IMG/VR virus record: IMGVR_UViG_3300034418_012968
Span: 1 to 43,071 of that record
Direction: 5' to 3' (one strand)
DNA length: 43,071 bases
DNA from: a virus
The position numbers and the translations under genes were made by a program. Below the pieces are notes generated by a model. That model was not told the DNA's origin. It ran no database searches and worked only from the letters and a program-made list of their open reading frames with translations. Positions 326 to 30,403 of this stretch are shown here, piece after piece; positions within the stretch are counted from its first letter, which is position 1, and each line of letters begins with the position of its first letter.

Positions 326-400
326 TGGTGATAACTGGATTCGAACCTTGACATCTCTTGGTCCGTAGCCAAGTGTTTTATCCAGTTAAACTATTAGTCC
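326..400 (-). tRNA. tRNA-Arg-like gene (anticodon ACG) with aberrant 3' half
   Basis: The 5' half is a textbook tRNA-Arg(ACG): acceptor GGACTAA, T8 A9, D arm GTTT/AAAC, and anticodon stem CTTGG/CCAAG with loop CTACGGA. The 3' half does not match it. GGTTCGAATCC is present, but the T stem has only two good pairs and the acceptor 3' strand is AGTTATC where TTAGTCC is expected. Instead the 3' segment ATCCAGTTA is perfectly complementary over 9 bases to TAACTGGAT in the D loop. It is either a tRNA pseudogene or an RNA with an alternative fold. Confidence 0.6.
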
Positions 401-2761: not shown

Positions 2762-3352
2762 TTAAATTTGTAAGGTTGCGTAGTTTATACTTAAAATTAA
2801 GTTTTGTAATAAAATTTTCATTCCGATTGCGATCAATATAATTCCAAAAACTCGTTCCATTATGGTGATCCCCATTATTCCTATTTTATCTTGGATCCAC
2901 GAGGCTGATTTCAGGACCAAATAAATCACCAATGAGTTTATAAATATGGCTGGTATGACCGTATAACTTCCGAATTCTGCTTGTAAGGACATAATGGTGG
3001 TTAAGGTACCGGGTCCTGATATTAAGGGAAATGCGATTGGAAAGATGGTTGCTTTGATTGCTTGTTTTTGTTTTTTGCTGCTTTCATCTAATCCTAATAC
3101 CATTTTCACTCCAAAATATAAAATAAGGAAGGAACCTGCCAGACCGAAATGGAATGTTTCAATGCCCAACAGTTTAAATAACGTTTCACCGATGAGTAAT
3201 ATTGCGATCATAATTGTTGCAGATATGACGGTCCCTTGAAACGAGTTGATTTCTCCGTGTTCTTTTCTCAACTTGATAATCAAGGGAATATTTCCGACCA
3301 TATCAATTACGGCGAATAATGTAAGTGCTGCGGTTAAAATATCTAATAACAT
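2762..3352 (-). CDS. MarC-family integral membrane protein
   Basis: A 196-residue, very hydrophobic protein with about six predicted membrane spans. The sequence matches the MarC/YhgN (UPF0056) family: an N-terminal FAVIDMVGNIPLI segment, the central FPIAFPLISGPGTLTTIM motif typical of the family and a C-terminal ERVFGIILIAIGMKILL helix. MarC proteins are inner-membrane proteins of uncertain transport function and are common in Bacteroidota chromosomes. Length is normal for the family. Finding it among phage genes suggests an acquired host gene, perhaps altering the envelope or metabolite flux during infection; that role is inference. Confidence 0.85.
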   Translation of the reverse strand: MLLDILTAALTLFAVIDMVGNIPLIIKLRKEHGEINSFQGTVISATIMIAILLIGETLFKLLGIETFHFGLAGSFLILYFGVKMVLGLDESSKKQKQAIKATIFPIAFPLISGPGTLTTIMSLQAEFGSYTVIPAIFINSLVIYLVLKSASWIQDKIGIMGITIMERVFGIILIAIGMKILLQNLILSINYATLQI

Positions 3353-6118: not shown

Positions 6119-6547
6119 TTAATTCAATTCCACCAACTCAATTTCAAAATTTAATTCTTTTCCTGCAAGAGGGTGGTTAAGGTCCAAAACAATTGAGTTT
6201 TCTTTTTCTTCAAGGATTTTTGCTTGGATCGGCATTCCTTGTTCAGTTTGACCTTGAACCATTGCTCCGATTTCAACAACGAAATCAGGTGGGAAATTTG
6301 CCTTATCTACCTCCGTGATTGCTTCATCCATACGAGTTCCATATGCATTCTCAGGAGCAATCGTTACCGATTTCTTATCTCCTTGTTCCATACCCATTAC
6401 AGAATCTTCAAATCCTTTGATCATTTGTCCTTGACCAACCTCAAAATTCAAGGTATTACCTCGCTTATATGAGTTGTCAAATTCCACACCGTCATTTAAA
6501 GTCCCGATGTAATGAACTTTTACTTTACTTCCGTTTTCTACTTTCAT
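6119..6547 (-). CDS. slyD: SlyD-type FKBP peptidyl-prolyl isomerase
   Basis: A 142-residue FKBP-type isomerase. It has the SlyD layout: an N-terminal FKBP half (VKVHYIGTLNDGVEFDNSY, GQMIKGFEDSVMGMEQGD), an inserted chaperone-like IF flap (about residues 70-120) and a C-terminal FKBP strand with LDLNHPLAGKELNFEIEL, the family's LNHPLAGK signature. The His-rich metal-binding tail of E. coli SlyD is missing, as in many Bacteroidota homologues. It is expected to be cytoplasmic and to help protein folding. It sits 10 nt from a thioesterase gene, probably in the same operon. Confidence 0.92.
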   Translation of the reverse strand: MKVENGSKVKVHYIGTLNDGVEFDNSYKRGNTLNFEVGQGQMIKGFEDSVMGMEQGDKKSVTIAPENAYGTRMDEAITEVDKANFPPDFVVEIGAMVQGQTEQGMPIQAKILEEKENSIVLDLNHPLAGKELNFEIELVELN

Positions 6548-6557
6548 TTGATTATAT

Positions 6558-6965
6558 TTAATTTTGATTTATATACTTTTCTTTAACTCTTTCAGAGATT
6601 GGAACCGGATCCCCTTGTTCATCAATCCGAACAAATGTAATATTTGTTTTTAACACCACATTTTGTTGTCCCGAATATACATTGTGAGATCGTGCTTCCA
6701 AATATATGGTAATTGAAGTTCTACCAAATTTCAACACTTTTGCATAGATTTTTAATAACTGACCTTCCTTTGCGGGTCGTTGAAAAAGGCATTCGTCAAT
6801 TTTAAGGGTGACCATCCTTGGGGTGTCACACACTTGAATTGCATAAGACGCAGCCGAGGAGTCAATCCACGACAATAAAGTTCCCCCAAATAAATTTCCG
6901 TGAAATCCGAGATCCTGTTTCTTAACAGGATGGGTGGTGATAAGTTCCATTTCGTGTAAGTTCAT
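6558..6965 (-). CDS. Hotdog-fold acyl-CoA thioesterase (YciA/ACOT type)
   Basis: Hotdog domain with the ACOT/YciA signature: HGNLFGGTLLSWIDSSAASYA (catalytic Asn/Asp region and central helix), then TLKIDECLFQRPAKEGQLLKIYAKV, and SITIYLEARSHNVYSG strands. It would hydrolyse acyl-CoA thioesters in the cytoplasm, and family members usually act as hexamers. ATG at 6965 is preferred because it overlaps the upstream nuclease stop as ATGA; an upstream in-frame ATG at 6989 would overlap by 28 nt. Its presence in a phage suggests interference with lipid metabolism, which is inference. Confidence 0.88.
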   Translation of the reverse strand: MNLHEMELITTHPVKKQDLGFHGNLFGGTLLSWIDSSAASYAIQVCDTPRMVTLKIDECLFQRPAKEGQLLKIYAKVLKFGRTSITIYLEARSHNVYSGQQNVVLKTNITFVRIDEQGDPVPISERVKEKYINQN

Positions 6966-7543
6966 CTTCTTAATAAATAATTGTTCCAATCTGTACCTGA
7001 TGTGTCTTTGTTTGGAAAATAAAAAACAAAAGTGGAATTGTCAAATGTAATGGTCTTATAAAATCCTCTTGGAATTTTTGCACCACTTTTCATGCTCTTA
7101 CAATCTTCATCCACATCCACTTTTATGGTCACATATACATTTGGATATAACCTTGCCAATGCGATCTCCACTTGTTCCAATTGATTCCATACCCCCCTGT
7201 TTAATTTTTCATGCTGCAACGCACAATTCACATAAGTAAAAGTCTCATATAACATCTCTTTGTTGCAAGACATTGCATTTGCGGGTACCATATGACCTTT
7301 GTCCCATATATTTTTATAATAGTCCTCATCTGTGGTTGTTATAATGGTATCGTTGGTATAAAAGTCCATACCACTTCTGCTCGCATCACCATTCGGACAC
7401 AATACACGATAACTGATTTCCAAAGGTTGTTTGAATTCTTGCGAATACTCAATACAGAATAAGGGGTTTTGATATGTTACGTTTTCTTGAGCAAAGGCAA
7501 ACGTAAAAACCAATACTGCCAATAAATTTAAAAATATCTTCAT
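6962..7543 (-). CDS. Exported DNA/RNA non-specific endonuclease (NUC1 type)
   Basis: A beta-beta-alpha-metal nuclease of the NUC1/Serratia family. From ATG at 7543 the protein starts with a clear signal peptide (MKIFLNLLAVLVFTFAFAQ, cleavage probably after Ala18). The catalytic DKGH motif is at residues 81-84 (DRGH in most relatives) and the metal Asn is in KLNRGVWNQLE near residue 115. It would degrade DNA and RNA in the periplasm or outside the cell. An in-frame ATG at 7573 adds ten residues before the signal and is less likely. It could scavenge nucleotides or destroy incoming DNA. Confidence 0.88.
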   Translation of the reverse strand: MKIFLNLLAVLVFTFAFAQENVTYQNPLFCIEYSQEFKQPLEISYRVLCPNGDASRSGMDFYTNDTIITTTDEDYYKNIWDKGHMVPANAMSCNKEMLYETFTYVNCALQHEKLNRGVWNQLEQVEIALARLYPNVYVTIKVDVDEDCKSMKSGAKIPRGFYKTITFDNSTFVFYFPNKDTSGTDWNNYLLRR

Positions 7544-7595
7544 AATAAAATGTTTTTTGTAATGACTGACCAAGCAATCAAACTAATAGTTTCAA

Positions 7596-22651: not shown

Positions 22652-22966
22652 TTAATTTAATTCAATAACTTCATTTAAAACTTCTTGTATGACTTCAATT
22701 TTATTCCCTTGAGACTGTTTTACTAATTTTCCATCCACGAATCCTGCGAATGTTGGTAAGTTTGTAACCTCAGCAAACTGACGAGTACCAGGTAATTTTT
22801 CTGCGTCCACGTAAATAAATTTGATGTCTTCATTTTCGGTGGATAATCTTTTAAACTTTGGTTTGGTTAATTTGCAATTACCACACCACGATGCTCCGTA
22901 TTGAACCATTACTTTTTTGTTTGAGGATAATACCTCACCTAAGTTATCTTGTGTTAAATCTTCCAT
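22652..22966 (-). CDS. Thioredoxin-like protein
   Basis: A 104-residue thioredoxin fold from ATG 22966 (MEDLTQDNLGEVL); an upstream in-frame ATG at 22993 adds nine residues. The active site is WCGNC (Cys28 and Cys31), differing from the usual WCGPC by Asn for Pro, which usually raises or shifts redox potential. The cis-Pro motif NLPTFAGF is present, and YVDAEKLPG follows the third strand. It is cytoplasmic, with no signal peptide. Phage thioredoxins and glutaredoxins support ribonucleotide reductase or act as polymerase partners; which applies here is unknown. Confidence 0.9.
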   Translation of the reverse strand: MEDLTQDNLGEVLSSNKKVMVQYGASWCGNCKLTKPKFKRLSTENEDIKFIYVDAEKLPGTRQFAEVTNLPTFAGFVDGKLVKQSQGNKIEVIQEVLNEVIELN

Positions 22967-23033
22967 AATGTTTTTTATTATAAAATAGTCCAATAAAGGT
23001 AAAAGTGAAATAGATTATATCTATATTATATTG

Positions 23034-23057
23034 AAAAACCCCTCACGTGGAGGGGTT
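23034..23057 (-). terminator. tmRNA terminator
   Basis: On the minus strand a 6-bp GC-rich stem CCCCTC / GAGGGG, extended by AA/TT, is followed by TTTTTC directly after the tmRNA 3' end. The 17-nt hairpin is the same sequence as in the plus-strand terminator at 30412. Confidence 0.8.
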
Positions 23058-23059
23058 AT

Positions 23060-23448
23060 TGGTGGAAGTGGGCGGAGTCGAACCGCCGTCTTGCCCGCAC
23101 CGTCCATAAAGGACTACACGCTTAGGTCAGGGTTTCTCTTACCCTCCGAAATAGTCGGTTTGTTCTTCACCATCGTAAACCTAACAACCAATGGACGACC
23201 CGATTTTAGGTTCAGTCGTTTTTCCACCTATATAAAGACTTCTGTTTCTAGGTTATATGTCCACCGACCCACTTCACTGTGAACGTCTTACGCTACAGCT
23301 ACTTCTTCAGCGCGGATAAGACCAACTGCCTGAAGATCTGCGATTGTTTCGCCATGTAAAAAGTCGTATCCGTAGATTAAAGTGATAGGAAACATCTCAC
23401 TGCGTGCCCCGTATGGAAAATTACGTCAATCGATACCAATTCACCCCC
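23060..23448 (-). ncRNA. ssrA: tmRNA (transfer-messenger RNA)
   Basis: A 389-nt RNA on the minus strand. The 3' end is a perfect tRNA half: T arm GGCGG-TTCGACT-CCGCC and acceptor CACTTCC followed by A and CCA, with CCA encoded. It pairs with the 5' GGGGGTG. A tag frame runs 23353-23288, GGC GAA ... GCG TAA, giving a 21-residue tag that starts GETIADLQ and ends AEEVAVA. The GGC GAA opening fits Bacteroidota tags, but the tag is long and lacks the usual ALAA end. The 5' TATCGATTGACG differs from the common TTCGACGGG. It rescues stalled ribosomes and marks peptides for proteolysis. Confidence 0.9.
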
Positions 23449-23475
23449 ATATTTTCAAAGAACTAATTTCTTCTA

Positions 23476-23483
23476 CAAATATA
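23476..23483 (-). promoter_or_regulatory. Host-type promoter of the tmRNA (TTG-N19-TATATTTG)
   Basis: A perfect TATATTTG on the minus strand with TTG exactly 19 nt upstream, matching the Bacteroidota TTTG-N19-TAnnTTTG layout. It leaves a leader of about 20 nt before the mature 5' end at 23448. Confidence 0.7.
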
Positions 23484-23507
23484 AATACTTTTTTTATTCT
23501 AACAAGC

Positions 23508-23515
23508 TATTTATA
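23508..23515 (+). promoter_or_regulatory. TATTTATA late-type motif
   Basis: Perfect motif followed by AGAAAA, ending 16 nt before the ATG at 23532. It overlaps the -33 region of the divergent tmRNA promoter. Confidence 0.55.
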
Positions 23516-23531
23516 AGAAAATATTATTGTT

Positions 23532-24071
23532 ATGGGAAAAAAAGTTGTCAAACTAACAGAATCAGATTTAAAGGGTATTATAGAAAGGGTTATTAGAGAG
23601 CAATCTAATATAGGTTCTTTTGATAGAACAGCAATTAATAAATATTTATCAACGACCATACCAAATAATTATGTTCCAGGTTCTATACTAAAAGATAAGA
23701 CAAAAAATTCTGAAGATATTTTTAAATTTATTAATATATTAGAAGGTTTTGATATAAATGATATGAAAACCATAGGGTTATCTGTTAATCCTTCTAGCAG
23801 AGGAGTGTATTCACCTCATCTTGGTGAACCAGGTAATGAGGAAATGTCCTTTAAAGTTTGGTCAATGATTACAGATGATATGATTTCTGCGGCGAACACA
23901 CCTTTGGAAATTATTTGTAAAAATGGTTTAAATAGATTTTTAGAATCTATAGCAAAACAAAACAAAGAAATGAATAACTTATATAGTAATTATCCTGCGG
24001 TTTTTGTGGATGTTTTTAATAAACAGTTATCAAATGTAGGTATTGATCAAGATACTTTGTGTGATTCTTAA
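23532..24071 (+). CDS. Hypothetical protein with LTES-type N-terminus, 179 aa
   Basis: It opens MGKKVVKLTESDLKGIIERV and continues VIREQ, a leader containing three (L/I)xE sites (LTE, IIE, IRE), typical of the shared N-terminal type in this window. The remainder is a compact mostly helical domain with IINKYLSTT-like and FKVWSMITDDMISAANTP segments, ending with a Cys near the C-terminus. No enzyme motif is recognised. It has its own late-type promoter motif and is likely a protein packaged in the head. Confidence 0.7.
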   Translation: MGKKVVKLTESDLKGIIERVIREQSNIGSFDRTAINKYLSTTIPNNYVPGSILKDKTKNSEDIFKFINILEGFDINDMKTIGLSVNPSSRGVYSPHLGEPGNEEMSFKVWSMITDDMISAANTPLEIICKNGLNRFLESIAKQNKEMNNLYSNYPAVFVDVFNKQLSNVGIDQDTLCDS

Positions 24072-24583
24072 TCTATATTTTTATATTTAATCGTCCTTAC
24101 CACGTGAGTTAGTCCTCCCGATTCCTCTGAGTACCGAACTCCCAAATCCATATATACACCCAGATAGACTATAATTAGGTGGGGAGCCATTGCTCCTGCC
24201 ACGGAATATTGATACATGATCCAATATGAAGTGTTTCCATCTATGTCGGTTGCCTCGTGAAACCTATTAATTAAAAAGTAATCACCACCCTGAAAGATCT
24301 CACCCGTACGAGATTCAGGATCCCATTTTATCTTAATATGATAATCAAGATTTCTTTTGATATCAATTGGTACAAGACACGTACACTCTTCGGGATCTTT
24401 ATCCCAATTGGCATTCAACATCTCAGATAAAAACAAAGCACTATCAATTGCCATTGCTTCACTATACCAATCATTGTGATGGAATACATACATGCTATCG
24501 GCATCTATATCAATTGTAATTTGTGAAAATGAGGTCAGTGTGGTGAATAGACCGGCCAGAATTGTAAGGAGTATATTTTTCAT
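24068..24583 (-). CDS. Exported protein, 171 aa
   Basis: A clear signal peptide MKNILLTILAGLFTTLTSFSQ, cleavage probably after Ser18 or Phe19 as in Bacteroidota exported proteins ending FSQ. There is no lipobox. The mature part contains two close cysteines (CTCLVP) and probable beta strands (DYHIKIKWDPESRTGEIFQG, SYWIMYQYSVAGAM). No family is recognised. A TACATTTG host-type box lies 16 nt upstream. It overlaps the end of the convergent gene by 4 nt. A periplasmic or surface role during infection is inferred. Confidence 0.75.
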   Translation of the reverse strand: MKNILLTILAGLFTTLTSFSQITIDIDADSMYVFHHNDWYSEAMAIDSALFLSEMLNANWDKDPEECTCLVPIDIKRNLDYHIKIKWDPESRTGEIFQGGDYFLINRFHEATDIDGNTSYWIMYQYSVAGAMAPHLIIVYLGVYMDLGVRYSEESGGLTHVVRTIKYKNID

Positions 24584-24599
24584 GATTTATTATTTTTAA

Positions 24600-24607
24600 C
24601 AAATGTA
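24600..24607 (-). promoter_or_regulatory. Host-type -7 box TACATTTG
   Basis: CAAATGTA on the plus strand, 16 nt before the ATG at 24583. Confidence 0.55.
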
Positions 24608-24639
24608 AGTATTAAAATTAAATTATCCAAATAATCAAG

Positions 24640-24647
24640 TATTTATA
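24640..24647 (+). promoter_or_regulatory. TATTTATA late-type motif
   Basis: Perfect motif followed by TTAAAAAAG, ending 14 nt before the ATG at 24662. It is divergent from the host-type box at 24600-24607. Confidence 0.6.
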
Positions 24648-24661
24648 TTAAAAAAGTATTT

Positions 24662-26617
24662 ATGTCCTTATTGAATATTTTATTGGAAGGGAAGAAAGAG
24701 ACCCTTATTGATAGATACAAAGATAGTATTAATTTTGAAGACTTTGAAAGTTTATTGGGAGATTTTATTGATCAGGACCCTTCTGCAACCAAAAAGTATT
24801 CTGAATGGATGATTAAAGAACTTGTCCGTCTATGGAATTCTGATTATGATGGTAGAAGTTTGGTGGATTTAATGAATTTTATGGGTGATGAAATCAAAAA
24901 ATTCCACGAATATTCAAATTCTATTTCTGAAAACGATGTTGAGTTTTTCTTTAAGAAAATTAACGAAGCTGAGGCTCGTGGAATAAAATATTTTGATTCT
25001 GAATCTAAAGCAAATCAACTGAAAAGGTCTCCAAAGCATATCAATTCATATCCGACAATATGGACGGTGCAGGTAATGAATAACTCTGTTGATATTCGTA
25101 AAAGAATTAAAAAGGAAGAGGAAGAAGCCAAAAAGAATGTGAATAAAATCTATGAAGATGATAGATTTTTGATTGTTGAGCCTTTCAATTATAAGGCATC
25201 TTGTTTTTATGGTGCAAACACCAAATGGTGTACGACCGGTACTGAGAGGGACTTCAATAGATACACTAATGAAGGTAGGTTAATTTATATAATTGATAAA
25301 AGTGCGGTGGGTAATGCTACCTTAGGTAAAATGGCTCTTCTTGTAGAATGGGATGGGTCCGTATCGGTATGGGATCAACAGGACAATGTGCGTAGTTTGC
25401 AATTTTTATTGGATAGGTTTAGTCCGATTGAAGAGTTAATTAAAAAAATTATAAAATCAAAAAGTGATTATGGAATATTAAAACAAGCGATTGAAGGTGG
25501 AGCATCGGCTCTTAAGCAACCATTAAGTTCTGAATATTTTGATTACTATAAAGATGGAAACGTTTATTTTACTTTTCCAAACGAATCCGATTATTTCAGT
25601 TGGTTCAGTGAAGTTATGAATGAATATGAAATAGATTTATTAAGTGTAGTTTTGAATGACCCTAATTTCTATTATGATCAAACATCCAGTGAATTTGATT
25701 CTGCATTGGAAGAAAATAGTTTTATAAACTATATTTTACCTGAAAGTTTTTTAAAAGATATGAAAGAACTTTTCAGAATTTTTAATAACGAACTTACAGA
25801 TTGTTTTCCTTATTCTAAGAAAATTGATATGGAAAAATTAAAAAGTTTGAAAGGAAAAAAAGGTTTAAAAAAATCTGACGTTTATCCTATTGAATTTAAC
25901 AATACGGAAAGATGTAGAACTCAAACACAAGAGTTTCTTGTGGATGAATTTCCCACATTAATTGACTCAATTAGAGATAGTTTCACGGAAATTCAAAGCG
26001 AATTGGCAATTGAAGGTGTGATAAAAAATATTTATGAAACATACTGTAATGTCTTAGATGTTTTAGGATTTAAACTTTATAAAGATGATAATGATTATTG
26101 TTTTTTTAGATATTATATATCAATTGAAGATTTAATTGCGTTATATGACTATTTTAATTTTGAAAATCCTGATGATTATTTAATTGATGATATAATAAGA
26201 TACAGTATTGATAGTCAAAACATAAATGTAGGTTTTGTTGAAGATCTTGTTTATGATCATTTGGGTAATATAGATTATGATAAATTAAATGAACGATTAT
26301 CTGAAGAATTAGAAATTATTTTTGAAAAATTTATGTCAGATTTGTGGGAATCGGATTCTTTTGAAGATTATGATAAGTACAAAGAAATTAGTGAATATGT
26401 TAAAAGTAAATATGGATTTAATAAGCCGATTAAAATAAAGAATATAGATCAAGATATTCAATTAATTATTAAAAATGTGGATCCTAAAACTAATGGGTTA
26501 CAATTTGAAATAATGAATAAAGATACTGATCAAAGTAAAACCGTAAAATCTAAATTATCAACATTTGAAAGTCTATTGAACAATTATTCTATGTTTGATA
26601 TTTTGGATATTTTTTAA
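24662..26617 (+). CDS. Large protein with CxYGxxTKWC phage domain, 651 aa
   Basis: It opens MSLLNILLEGKKETLID, with an LLE-G cleavage-like site. At residues about 155-235 lies a domain with FLIVEPFNYKASCFYGANTK followed by WCTTGTERDFNRYTNEG and LIYIIDKS; the C-x-x-YGA-x-TKWC block recurs in proteins of large phages but has no assigned activity that I know of. The remaining 400 residues are acidic and mostly helical, with several DYFDF-type clusters and a beta C-terminus. Its stop overlaps the convergent peptidase gene by 4 nt. Probably a late packaged protein. Confidence 0.7.
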   Translation: MSLLNILLEGKKETLIDRYKDSINFEDFESLLGDFIDQDPSATKKYSEWMIKELVRLWNSDYDGRSLVDLMNFMGDEIKKFHEYSNSISENDVEFFFKKINEAEARGIKYFDSESKANQLKRSPKHINSYPTIWTVQVMNNSVDIRKRIKKEEEEAKKNVNKIYEDDRFLIVEPFNYKASCFYGANTKWCTTGTERDFNRYTNEGRLIYIIDKSAVGNATLGKMALLVEWDGSVSVWDQQDNVRSLQFLLDRFSPIEELIKKIIKSKSDYGILKQAIEGGASALKQPLSSEYFDYYKDGNVYFTFPNESDYFSWFSEVMNEYEIDLLSVVLNDPNFYYDQTSSEFDSALEENSFINYILPESFLKDMKELFRIFNNELTDCFPYSKKIDMEKLKSLKGKKGLKKSDVYPIEFNNTERCRTQTQEFLVDEFPTLIDSIRDSFTEIQSELAIEGVIKNIYETYCNVLDVLGFKLYKDDNDYCFFRYYISIEDLIALYDYFNFENPDDYLIDDIIRYSIDSQNINVGFVEDLVYDHLGNIDYDKLNERLSEELEIIFEKFMSDLWESDSFEDYDKYKEISEYVKSKYGFNKPIKIKNIDQDIQLIIKNVDPKTNGLQFEIMNKDTDQSKTVKSKLSTFESLLNNYSMFDILDIF

Positions 26618-27642
26618 TATTTGTCATTAAGTTGTTCTTTTAAGAACAAATAAAGTTCAACAGTTTGTTCGTAATCTAAACTTATAAAATTATCGGTTCG
26701 GTGATCTTCAATGGTGAACTCATCATTAGTATACTCCATTTCAATATTATCCCATATAGTTGAATTAAAAGTATATAGGTCATCATCATCATAATCGTTT
26801 TCATATGTGTCATTCGGACCTAAAAATTCGTATAGTTCAAATCCGAGTTCATTAACCATATTAAGTGCTGAATTGAATGCGTTTTCAACATCCTGTACCA
26901 CAACAAATTCTTTGCTGGTGTGCATATTGTAATATCCACAAGAAAAATTGATACAAGAAAAATCACCTTTTAATTTGATTTGTGAGACATCGGTATATGG
27001 ATGTGATTGCTGATCAATATCACATCCCATTGCTTTGGAGAAGATGGGAAGGATTTTATTGATGAACTCACCATTTTTTTGGTATAATTGAACTCCCGAG
27101 CAATACTCGGTAATTAGGTGATCACCTGGACAGTCAAATTGAATTGCGTATCCTACATCCTCTAAAAAACTCAAATCACACTGACTTGATCCGATACATC
27201 CGGTCTCTTCTGAAACAAACAAACCAACTTTACAGTAGTTTAAGGTTTTGAGTAGTTCAATTGCAATGAAAATACCAACTTTATCATCACCACCAATTCC
27301 GGTGGGTGTTCCATCTTCAAGATATCCTTTAAGTGACAAATATTCCGTATCATCATATGATTTGCCAAATGTATTTGGTTTTCTAAGGTATTCTTCTTTA
27401 ACTACGATTTTATCTTGCAGTTCGTGTACGGTATCGGTGTGTGCAATAAACATTGGATAATATTTACCTTCGGGTAATTTCCCTTTGGTTGCATAGACAT
27501 TCATCTTATGATCCAAATAATAACTAACACCTTCAATATTATCTAATACAGAGGTAATATATTTGACCATTCCTTCTTCTTTATAAGTTTTTGAAGGTAC
27601 GGAAAGAAGATCTTTAAAATCCTGTAGTTGGGTTGCGTTCAT
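26614..27642 (-). CDS. M20-family metallopeptidase (peptidase T / dipeptidase-like)
   Basis: A 342-residue di-zinc exopeptidase. Zinc and catalytic motifs are in order: FIAHTDTVH (His and Asp), TGIGGDDKVGIF (bridging Asp), VSEETGCIGS (Glu-Glu base and ligand), QFDCPGDH (Asp) and NMHTSKE near the C-terminus (last His). The region between is shorter than in host PepT, so the dimerisation lid may be reduced. The C-terminal 60 residues are very acidic. It should trim short peptides in the cytoplasm, for example ClpP products. TACTTTTG box just upstream. Overlaps the neighbour by 4 nt. Confidence 0.88.
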   Translation of the reverse strand: MNATQLQDFKDLLSVPSKTYKEEGMVKYITSVLDNIEGVSYYLDHKMNVYATKGKLPEGKYYPMFIAHTDTVHELQDKIVVKEEYLRKPNTFGKSYDDTEYLSLKGYLEDGTPTGIGGDDKVGIFIAIELLKTLNYCKVGLFVSEETGCIGSSQCDLSFLEDVGYAIQFDCPGDHLITEYCSGVQLYQKNGEFINKILPIFSKAMGCDIDQQSHPYTDVSQIKLKGDFSCINFSCGYYNMHTSKEFVVVQDVENAFNSALNMVNELGFELYEFLGPNDTYENDYDDDDLYTFNSTIWDNIEMEYTNDEFTIEDHRTDNFISLDYEQTVELYLFLKEQLNDKY

Positions 27643-27655
27643 GTTATATTTTTTT

Positions 27656-27663
27656 CAAAAGTA
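27656..27663 (-). promoter_or_regulatory. Host-type -7 box TACTTTTG
   Basis: CAAAAGTA on the plus strand, TAnnTTTG on the minus strand, 13 nt before the ATG of the M20 peptidase. Confidence 0.45.
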
Positions 27664-27683
27664 ATAAAAATATTCATATAATC

Positions 27684-27715
27684 AAAAAAAAAGACCCAAT
27701 AAATGGGTCTTTTTT
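27684..27715 (-). terminator. Rho-independent terminator after the ClpC-like gene
   Basis: A 9-bp stem AAAGACCCA / TGGGTCTTT with loop ATAAA and A/T runs on both sides. On the minus strand it ends the ClpC-like transcript before the peptidase promoter. Confidence 0.85.
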
Positions 27716-27731
27716 AATATTAAGTTAGAAA

Positions 27732-29738
27732 TTACTGTATTTTGATCTCATCATCTTGTAAAATCATATTATACGGTGTTTCTTCTTTGATTTCTCCACG
27801 CAATATACTTTCAGAGATTAGGTCCTCAAGTTTTTCTTGAATTGCTCGTTTGATTGGACGTGCACCATATTTCTCATCAAATCCCACTTCTGAAATATAA
27901 GTAACCACTTCTTCAGAAATTGTGATCTTGTAATTCAGGTCCTCAATACGTTGAAGTAATTTGTTAATTTCAATCTGTGTGATTTTTTTAACTTCATCTT
28001 CTTTAAGAGGGTTAAACACAATCACCTCATCAACACGGTTCAAAAATTCAGGTGTGAAATGGTTTTTCAATTCCTTTTGAAGAAGGACTTTTTTCATTTC
28101 TTCATTATTTGACACTCGTTTTTCGGTTGCAAAACCAACTCCCGTTCCAAAATCTTGAAGTTTTTTAACACCCAAATTTGAGGTCATAATGATCAAAGTG
28201 TTACGGAAATTAATTCTCCGACCAAAGCTATCAGTTAAGAATCCATCATCCATTGTTTGCAATAACAAAGAGAAAATATCCTTGTTTGCTTTTTCCACCT
28301 CATCAAATAATACCACCGAATAAGGTTTGTTTTTAACTGATTCCGTCAATTGACCTCCTTGATCATAACCCACATATCCAGGAGGAGAACCAATCAATCG
28401 GGACATTGAATGTTTTTCTTGATATTCAGACATATCCACACGGATTAATGCATCTTCATCTCCGAATATTTCTTTTGCCAACTGTTTTGCCAAGTGAGTT
28501 TTACCAATACCTGTTGAACCCAAGAAGATAAAGGAACCGATTGGACGATTTGGGTCTTTAATTCCAACTCGGTTTCTCCGAATTGATTTTGATATTTTGG
28601 AGACCGCATCTTCCTGACCAATAACACTCATATTGAGGTTTGATTCCAAATCCAAAAGACTTTGTTTGTCATCGGTGGTTAATTTGGAAATAGGTATTTT
28701 GGTCATTACCGATACGACTTCATATACCATTTCTTCGGTCACAGGATGACGTTCGGTGTCTTTTGATTCTTCAAACTTGCGTTTCTCATCTTCCAGTTGT
28801 TTCAGGATTTTCTTTTCCTTGTCTCGTAATTGTGCTGCTTGTTCATATCGTTGAGACTTAACCACTTGGATTTTTTCTTCCCGAATTTCTGCCGCCTTTT
28901 CTTTAAGTTCTTCAATAATCTCAGGTAACTTCACATTGATTTGACAACGAGCACCAACCTCATCCATAATATCAATTGCTTTATCAGGGAATTCACGATC
29001 GGTGATGTAACGACCCGCAAGAGATACACATGCTTTTAGTGATTCAGGTGAATAAGAAACTTTGTGGTGTTTTTCATAACGTTCCTTAAGATTTGTAAGA
29101 ATTTCCATTGTCTCTTCAGGTGTTGCACCATCAACGATCACTTTTTGGAAACGACGATCCAATGCTCCGTCTTTTTCAATATTCTCACGGTATTCGTCCA
29201 ATGTGGTTGCTCCGATACATTGGAGTTCTCCACGAGCAAGAGCGGGTTTAAAGATATTGGACGCATCCAATGAACCACTTGAATTACCAGCACCGATCAT
29301 TGTGTGAATCTCGTCAATAAACACAATAATATCTGTGTTATTTTCAAGTTCTTCCAAAATGACTTTGATACGTTCTTCAAACTGACCACGATATTTGGTT
29401 CCCGCAACGATTGAAGTCATATCCAATGATACGATTTTCTTATCACATAAGTTTTGCGGACAATCACCATTATATATCTTCATTGCCAGTCCTTCCACAA
29501 TCGCAGTCTTTCCTGCACCAGGTTCTCCGATGATGATGGGGTTATTTTTCTTGCGACGTGAGAGTATTTGCGCAATCCGATTGATTTCACGTTCTCTTCC
29601 GATTACTGGATCAAGTTTTCCTTCTTGTGCCAATTTGATCAGGTCACGAGAAAAGTTATCCAACACGGGAGTTGATGAACCTGAGGTGTCTTTGGATGAA
29701 CTTGCACTTTTTTGATTTGGATCAATTTCTTCAATCAT
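27732..29738 (-). CDS. ClpC-like AAA+ unfoldase lacking the N domain
   Basis: A 668-residue two-ring Clp/Hsp100 ATPase. D1 has Walker A GEPGAGKT at 71-78, Walker B FIDEIH near 140-145 and Arg finger region DRRF near 195. A short middle domain contains a UVR-type motif ([19 protein letters not shown], about 298-316), as in ClpC. D2 has Walker A GSTGIGKT at 407-414, LFDEVE near 477, and a VGF tripeptide at 534-536 where ClpC carries its ClpP-docking loop. The usual N-terminal Clp-N repeats are replaced by about 25 Ser-rich residues. It should unfold proteins into host ClpP, with altered adaptor use. Confidence 0.93.
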
Positions 29739-29766
29739 TCTATTTCAATTTTAAGTTTATACGAAA

Positions 29767-29774
29767 CAAATATA
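29767..29774 (-). promoter_or_regulatory. Host-type promoter of the ClpC-like gene (TTG-N19-TATATTTG)
   Basis: A perfect TATATTTG on the minus strand with TTG 19 nt upstream, 28 nt before the ATG at 29738. The first of three operator-like repeats begins just upstream of its -33 element. Confidence 0.65.
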
Positions 29775-29802
29775 ACAAAAACTATGTAGTTATCAACTTT
29801 TA

Positions 29803-29867
29803 GACAAAATGTCAGTGTAATTTATTTTTTTACTGTCATTTTGACATTTTTACTTACAAAACGTCAG
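29803..29867. promoter_or_regulatory. Three operator-like repeats in a divergent region
   Basis: Three copies of an ACTGaCATTTTG-like site occur in 65 bp: 29803-29816 (minus orientation, containing the palindrome GACAAAATGTC), 29832-29846 (plus orientation, containing TGTCATTTTGACA) and 29856-29867 (minus, CTGACGTTTTGT). They lie between the ClpC-like gene and the UVR gene. The arrangement is that of a repressor or activator array controlling both genes. The binding protein is unknown; CtsR- or LexA-like control would be a family-level guess only. Confidence 0.5.
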
Positions 29868-29915
29868 ATCTTATCTTTTTTTATTTTGATGGCATGATAT
29901 TTACATAGTGAGGGA

Positions 29916-29923
29916 CAAAGATA
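29916..29923 (-). promoter_or_regulatory. Second host-type box TATCTTTG toward the ClpC-like gene
   Basis: CAAAGATA on the plus strand. It overlaps TATAAATA at 29922-29929, the T4-late sequence in plus orientation, 24 nt before the UVR gene start. Its use is uncertain. Confidence 0.3.
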
Positions 29924-29953
29924 TAAATAAAACTTTTAAAACCAAAAAAAATT

Positions 29954-30403
29954 ATGTTTAGAAGAAGAAAAACTTGGATTGATGATTTAAATGATCTTTT
30001 TAAAGACTTCAATTTTAATTCTGATTATTTGTTTTATCCACAAACAGATAGAACAGGAAATACCGAAAAGAAAAATTATTCAACGGAAATAGGTGAGTGG
30101 GAAAAAGAGACATTCACATCTAATGATGGATCTTTTGTTCAAACTAAAATCTATTTCACACCTCGTGGTTTTGAGGAAAAAATGATGAACCCTGAAAATA
30201 TGGACCTCAAAAATCAACTCCGTATTGCTGTTGAAAATGAAGATTTTGAAAAAGCAGCAGAATTGAGAGATCAAATTAAGAACTTGGAAAAAAATAAAGA
30301 AGAAATTTCAAATCTTAATTTAGAACTTAAAAAAGTAATTTCAGAACAAAACTTTGAACGAGCAATTGAAATTAGAGATCAACTGAAAGAACTTAAATCT
30401 TAA
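29954..30403 (+). CDS. Double-UVR-motif protein (McsA-like adaptor candidate)
   Basis: A 149-residue protein. The first 80 residues are basic then beta-like (MFRRRKTWIDDLNDLFKDF, FVQTKIYFTPRGFEEKMM). The C-terminal half holds two UVR-type coiled motifs, LKNQLRIAVENEDFEKAAEL followed by RDQIKNLEK (about 86-115), and LKKVISEQNFERAIEIRDQL (about 125-145). UVR motifs occur in UvrB, UvrC, ClpC and the ClpC adaptor McsA. No zinc CxxC of McsA is present. The divergent location beside a phage ClpC whose middle domain also has a UVR motif suggests a partner or regulator of that unfoldase. Confidence 0.75.
   Translation: MFRRRKTWIDDLNDLFKDFNFNSDYLFYPQTDRTGNTEKKNYSTEIGEWEKETFTSNDGSFVQTKIYFTPRGFEEKMMNPENMDLKNQLRIAVENEDFEKAAELRDQIKNLEKNKEEISNLNLELKKVISEQNFERAIEIRDQLKELKS

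Follow-up and report, generated by a model that had tools for sequence, protein, structure and literature searches.

A tmRNA with a long conserved tag and an N-domain-less ClpC in large phages: a possible viral trans-translation and ClpCP proteolysis pathway

Phage tmRNA and SmpB have been recorded previously (PMC4131195; PMC7162821). ClpP, ClpS, and ClpA genes are known from jumbo phages (PMC7824862), a core "ClpA" and a "putative peptidase" from moraphages (PMC12619734), and chaperones with Clp protease from Bacteroidota bS21 phages (PMC9723584). In Staphylococcus aureus, it is the pore of ClpC, not its N domain, that recognises the SsrA tag; ClpC without this domain (deltaN-ClpC) shows no activity on GFP-SsrA, and deltaN-ClpC with an M-domain mutation is highly active (PMC5699869; PMC12583610). 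The characterised ClpC adaptors all bind the N domain (PMC12583610), and plastid ClpC has UVR proteins among its known partners (PMC8889267).

The DNA analysed here (the window) is IMG/VR record IMGVR_UViG_3300034418_012968, 43,071 nt, positions 1-43,071, itself a fragment of a larger genome. It is a piece of a large Bacteroidota phage genome, in which terminase, portal, and prohead-protease-like genes lie to the right of the proteostasis genes; in the ClpC-selected set, related IMG/VR contigs reach 321 kb. The hosts are most likely Bacteroidota, as judged from tmRNA promoters of the TAnnTTTG type, the nearest cellular ClpP and ClpC (from Flavobacteriia and Sphingobacteriia), and the assignment of similar phages to Bacteroidota in two published accounts (PMC12619734; PMC9723584). 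An earlier note on this DNA had placed a tmRNA, a peptidase, a ClpC-like ATPase, and a UVR protein here; all four features are at their places and all its coordinates were correct. In the reading preferred here, given a rough probability of 0.55, these phages bring along a pathway of their own that joins trans-translation to proteolysis by ClpCP.

Further protein-folding genes of the window encode an FKBP-type prolyl isomerase (6119-6547, minus strand) and a thioredoxin (22652-22993, minus strand). Unusual phage cargo comprises a MarC-family membrane protein (2762-3352), a hot-dog thioesterase (6558-6989), and a non-specific DNA/RNA endonuclease (6962-7573), all on the minus strand. A possible fourth, degenerate tRNA lies at 326-400 (minus strand; Rfam 29.3 bits, barely above cut-off; no ARAGORN call).

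The tmRNA and its tag

Features of the tmRNA gene:
23060-23448, minus strand: tmRNA (ssrA); RF00023 at 77.2 bits over the full length, and relatives
23288-23353, minus strand: frame encoding the tag GETIADLQAVGLIRAEEVAVA, closed by a stop codon, with GGC (23353-23351) as resume codon; sequence, 66 phage loci, and codon test
23476-23483, minus strand: TATATTTG, Bacteroidota-type -7 element (TAnnTTTG) of the tmRNA; sequence
23455-23463, minus strand: GTTCTTTGA, element immediately 5' of the mature tmRNA start; sequence, conserved at the same place in most relatives
23033-23055, minus strand: probable intrinsic terminator of the tmRNA, CCCCTC..GAGGGG followed by a T-run; read from sequence

The presence of a tmRNA, as first proposed, is borne out by Rfam model RF00023 (gathering threshold 47 bits, E 2e-28), aligned over model positions 1-374, i.e., full length; this alignment and the presence of the gene in relatives rule out a chance match. 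ARAGORN alone did not detect the tmRNA of the window. The 3' CCA is encoded, tRNA-like ends and tag frame are both present, and a G3-U70 pair (alanine identity) can be read in the acceptor stem. The TAnnTTTG element was found at 52 of 59 distinct tmRNAs vs 9% in shuffles, and GTTCTTTGA may be akin to the boxA-type leader elements found in rRNA operons of Bacteroidota. Because smpB is encoded in just three of 50 records (in two of them, G020 and G024, loci L041 and L054, less than 1 kb from the tmRNA), host SmpB is assumed for the phage tmRNA.

The tag frame reads GETIADLQAVGLIRAEEVAVA and ends in AEEVAVA, as had been claimed. Tags at 66 phage loci have 21 or 22 residues and end in -VxA, the consensus being Gly at position 1, usually Lys at 6, Met/Leu at 7, Gly-Leu at 11-12, and a terminal Ala. 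Among 46 distinct DNA versions, entropy at the three codon positions is 0.93/0.59/1.31, positions 1 and 2 being the least variable and position 3 the most; single-base codon differences are 3559 synonymous vs 2141 non-synonymous in the tag frame, and 2401/4681 and 750/7448 in the other frames. Since the synonymous excess is absent from the other frames, the codon pattern indicates that the tag itself is selected as a peptide, under strong protein-level selection. An accidental frame is ruled out by the same test, and a selected peptide supports a tagging role.

Among 34 Bacteroidota host tmRNAs sampled, 33 tags have 9-10 residues and an AA end (e.g., GENNYAMAA, DNNYSYRLAA); the remaining reading (L352, ARAGORN) is apparently wrong. 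Tags of other big phages are DNVNSFEQSILNELFAPVEMAVAA in LR756504, GKTNVWEAINSFGAPVSQVEFAVAA in the G087/G091 type, GNKNVWDAINAFGTPATEIELAYAA in G078, and GENPF..LAGL types in G058, G061, G082, and G083. Prevotella Lak phages (L285-L287, L293-L295) have tmRNA with a short host-like DDEIDFRMAA or DDEIEFRMAA, together with ClpP and without ClpC, and sister phage G077 has a ClpC-ClpP pair yet a short host-like tag, DNAELAMAA. A strict coupling of long tag and ClpC is ruled out by these two cases; judged over the sequences compared, long tags mostly accompany N-domain-less ClpC. Tag length by itself is not new, as bacterial tags range from 8 to 35 residues (PMC8012679); it is as a conserved peptide of 21 residues that the tag is a candidate new degron.

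ClpC, the UVR protein, and the peptidase

Features of the protein genes:
27732-29738, minus strand: ClpC-like AAA+ unfoldase, 668 aa, N domain absent, M-domain and the two ATPase domains intact; Pfam, alignments
28797-28904, minus strand: UVR/M-domain of ClpC, residues 279-314, with a tip of 12 residues; PF02151 (E 8e-5), alignment
28131-28139, minus strand: VGF (residues 534-536) of the ClpP-docking loop; aligned with a ClpC whose structure is known and with relatives
29954-30403, plus strand: two-UVR protein, 149 aa, divergent from ClpC; PF02151 twice (E 4e-18)
26614-27642, minus strand: M20/M42-like metallopeptidase, 342 aa; Pfam, PHROG, NCBIfam, residue conservation

By domain content and alignment, the unfoldase of the window is an N-domain-less derivative of ClpC and not a complete ClpC. 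Its Pfam domains are AAA, AAA_lid_9, AAA_2, ClpB_D2-small, and the UVR M-domain, and it aligns without a break to residues 149-785 of S. aureus ClpC (E 7e-225); as the alignment begins at residue 149, the Clp N domain (S. aureus residues 1-148) is missing. The earlier description of a ClpC-like ATPase with VGF and without the adaptor-binding N domain agrees with this alignment. The N domain is missing in all relatives, phage ClpCs having 648-738 aa vs 853-858 aa in hosts; an N domain masked by a wrong start is ruled out, starts being conserved and the relatives' open reading frames mostly 650-700 aa long. The [VI]GF loop is retained in the compared phage ClpCs bar one divergent MGF, and the pore loops KYRG and GYVG are retained in nearly all of them. 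The M-domain tip (..YEQAAQLRD) equals the host version; a derived change in the phage tip was considered and is ruled out, as hosts carry the same Tyr.

The window family (30 rows) forms one group in the ClpC tree (100/99). The placement of LR745206 and LR756502 beside host ClpC suggests that N-domain-less ClpC arose more than once, the deep part of the tree being unsure, with long branches. In the ClpCs of L096, L098, L099, and L102, a different N-terminal extension, starting MKIKIEEFFNLVKNEGGTYKIK[TS]PSGYKLVGN, replaces the Clp N domain.

From the S. aureus data it follows that host adaptors would go unrecognised by a phage ClpC that has lost the N domain and kept its M-domain intact; such a ClpC would suit tags read at the pore, and something would have to break its M-domain contacts. 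The phage protein would be the natural counterpart of the engineered S. aureus mutant, inactive until M-domain contacts are broken, and its natural occurrence points to activation of ClpC through the M-domain only.

The divergent two-UVR protein is indeed present, with its two PF02151 repeats; 57 distinct sequences were compared, the window's included (56 distinct relatives), from loci that are not independent. Its repeats NEDFEKAAELRD and EQNFERAIEIRD resemble the tip of the window's ClpC M-domain. The predicted structure (pLDDT 72) consists of an N-terminal helix, three strands, and helical hairpins; a fold search with this model against PDB gave no match below E 0.1. The McsA model scores 43 bits (cut-off 210), with the match confined to the UVR part, and the zinc-binding part of McsA is absent, no CxxC motifs occurring in the sequence. 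Because the repeats resemble the M-domain tip and the model shows helical hairpins, the UVR protein may be the release factor of ClpC M-domain self-inhibition.

A universal partner of ClpC it is not, the gene being found in 68 of 101 relatives and absent from about a third. An Hsp20 gene (PF00011) takes the same divergent position at 16 loci, and UVR and Hsp20 never occur together; Hsp20 was seen beside ClpC at L056, L015, L025, L033, L034, L060, and others. The UVR position holds DnaK at L064 and a small helical protein of unrecognised type at L026, L029, L041, L046, and L054; other loci lacking UVR have small unknown proteins, or nothing recognised, beside ClpC.

For the peptidase, Pfam M42 is barely over its cut-off, PHROG 4191 ("peptidase") matches with E 2e-37, and the nearest NCBIfam models, M20 PepT, are far under their cut-off; a sequence search against PDB gave no match. 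Residues H68, D70, D119, D120, E145, E146, D170, and H241 are invariant in 75 relatives and are presumably the metal-binding/catalytic positions expected of the family. The former label "M20-type peptidase" holds as to peptidase and is acceptable as to M20; "M20/M42-like" is safer.

Co-occurrence, ClpP, and readings of the gene set

Relatives were collected from four anchors, which avoids single-gene sampling: ClpC (L002-L081), UVR (L082-L102), ClpP (L151-L230), and terminase (L365-L444). Wherever a locus extends 5.9 kb or more behind ClpC, a tmRNA lies 2.0-6.3 kb past the end of ClpC (70 loci, two being cut copies at contig ends). ClpC is present in 27 of 27 terminase-selected loci whose right side spans 8.5 kb or more and in all UVR-selected loci, those searched as whole records having ClpC and the peptidase; the peptidase gene occurs in 50 of 50 records. 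Co-occurrence in relatives thus stands for three members of the set (tmRNA, ClpC, peptidase) and in part for the fourth, UVR (68/101). The same block holds KTSC (98/102), a nucleotidyltransferase-like gene (97/102), and terminase (85/102). Because these neighbours are equally conserved (core region), co-occurrence alone is no proof of a shared task, and synteny as proof of cooperation is ruled out.

This equal synteny, with the block adjoining terminase and portal genes, favours an explanation in which the genes do separate jobs in a shared genome block: tmRNA would rescue ribosomes, ClpC (with or without ClpP) would remodel or fold virion proteins, and UVR and Hsp20 would act as holdases. Hsp20 and DnaK beside ClpC in some relatives fit it as well, as does the finding that in the bacteria tested the vital part of trans-translation is ribosome rescue, not degradation (PMC8012679). 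The retained [VI]GF loops, the pairing of ClpC with ClpP in sister phages, and selection on the tag peptide far in excess of the needs of rescue speak against it, and we consider it unlikely.

No ClpP gene lies within the 43-kb window, which extends ~28 kb beyond ClpC on the tmRNA side. By PF00574, a ClpP of the S14 type and ~225 aa was found in 18 of 50 records (E about 1e-58); the active-site regions, read in 18 sequences, are intact (AASMG serine, LHQ histidine, RD aspartate), and solved ClpP structures are among the relatives of the phage ClpPs. All four close relatives reaching far enough (G001, G005, G006, G009) encode ClpP, at 41.6, 43.7, 46.9, and 48.5 kb from ClpC on the tmRNA side, respectively; ClpP was not within reach in ten records with 32-59 kb in that direction (G014, G015, G024, G034, G035, G043-G046, G048). 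At least 599 viral stretches hold ClpP. ClpP-selected contigs hold ClpC in 27 of 41 records, and in 32 of 80 ClpP-selected loci (sister phages) a same-strand ClpC gene precedes ClpP by no more than 3 kb; because ClpP-selected contigs often hold ClpC, neighbouring on the same strand, phage ClpC and phage ClpP plausibly form one machine. Bacteroidetes, Prochlorococcus, and Flavobacteriaceae MAG/single-cell contigs (L231-L233) carry a phage-type ClpP with 66-75% identity and are probably misbinned phage DNA.

The earlier note had phage ClpC engage host ClpP, turning host proteolysis to the use of the phage. The VGF docking loop, the window without ClpP, and the ten long-flank records would agree with this; phage ClpP, encoded by the four closest long relatives and by many other viral stretches and adjoining ClpC in sister phages, makes it quite improbable, and both host and phage ClpP could be used. 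The host-ClpP part of that account is probably mistaken, or not the whole story, given the ClpP genes of the window's relatives. The tag-unfold-degrade proposal as a whole is supported in part: co-occurrence and the selected tag speak for it, host ClpP is its doubtful point, and synteny by itself does not establish cooperation. That the long tag shields tagged proteins from host ClpXP or routes them elsewhere, rather than to destruction, would suit its difference from host tags in length and end and the short host-like tags of Lak phages, which have ClpP without ClpC, but is very improbable given a phage unfoldase and ClpP and a tag end still small and hydrophobic, as in degradable SsrA variants.

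In the preferred reading of a phage-borne pathway, the phage tmRNA would carry alanine, act together with host SmpB (a few relatives encode this protein themselves), rescue stalled ribosomes, and append the 21-residue phage-specific tag to the stalled chains. The tag would be the degron for phage ClpCP. Known adaptors and arginine-phosphate marks dock on the Clp N domain; ClpC lacking it would take tagged chains straight at the pore and thread them into phage ClpP, whose gene is expected about 14-21 kb past the left end of the window, and the M20/M42-like peptidase would trim the products. A release factor would be needed, because the M-domain, which holds S. aureus deltaN-ClpC inactive, is intact in phage ClpC; the UVR protein is probably this factor and would activate ClpC, its place being taken in other relatives by Hsp20 or further proteins. 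What the sequences establish is the genes and their conservation, the selection on the tag, the loss of the N domain, and ClpP in relatives; the roles of tag and UVR protein and the order of these steps are what we infer from them. Weighing against this reading are the window without ClpP and the ten long-flank records in which ClpP was not within reach, the equal synteny of unrelated neighbours, the missing UVR gene in about a third of relatives, and the short tag of G077 beside a ClpC-ClpP pair.

A stronger version is offered tentatively, as something we would rather doubt than assert: an orthogonal viral degradation system, in which the re-made trans-translation tag would be a two-part degron of a new kind (first half helical, then an invariant GL, an acidic stretch, and the VxVA end). 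N-domain-less ClpC would read this degron, a trans-acting UVR mimic of the M-domain would free ClpC from its resting state, and viral ClpP would receive the chains, so that host adaptors would be bypassed altogether. If true, a virus would bring tag, motor, protease, and activator of a bacterial protein-disposal route.

Comparison with known systems

The components are known singly in phages; the arrangement and the tag are new variants. No account of a long selected tag, of N-domain loss, of UVR/Hsp20 exchange, or of the set as one pathway was found in the open-access literature searched, which is no proof of novelty. Bacterial tmRNA-SmpB and the phage tmRNAs of the Bxz1 group, phage G, and huge phages share with the window a complete tmRNA, tRNA-like ends, and a tag frame; the window and its relatives differ in the tag, which has 21-22 residues, a conserved sequence not shared with the others, and a -VxA end, and in the link of tmRNA to N-domain-less ClpC. 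The Clp genes of jumbo phages, moraphages, and bS21 phages are alike in ClpP, ClpS, or Clp ATPase and in Bacteroidota hosts; in the accessible parts of these sources they are reported singly or as a proteostasis theme, without long tag, N-domain loss, or UVR partner.

ClpC and ClpP of S. aureus, Bacillus subtilis, and Bacteroidota are alike in two ATPase domains, M-domain, pore loops, and [VI]GF loop, and ClpP of the phage relatives is of the usual kind, but viral. Unlike bacterial ClpC, phage ClpC has no N domain and therefore no docking site for MecA, McsB, ClpS, or arginine-phosphate. McsA, plastid ClpF, UVR1-4, and EXECUTER (PMC8889267) resemble the phage UVR protein as small proteins with UVR motifs, the UVR part of McsA being a near-match. 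The phage protein is without the zinc-binding part of McsA and without a YccV or DUF151 domain; in it a short helix and three strands precede the tandem pair of UVR repeats, and it stands outside the McsA, ClpF, UVR1-4, and EXECUTER families.
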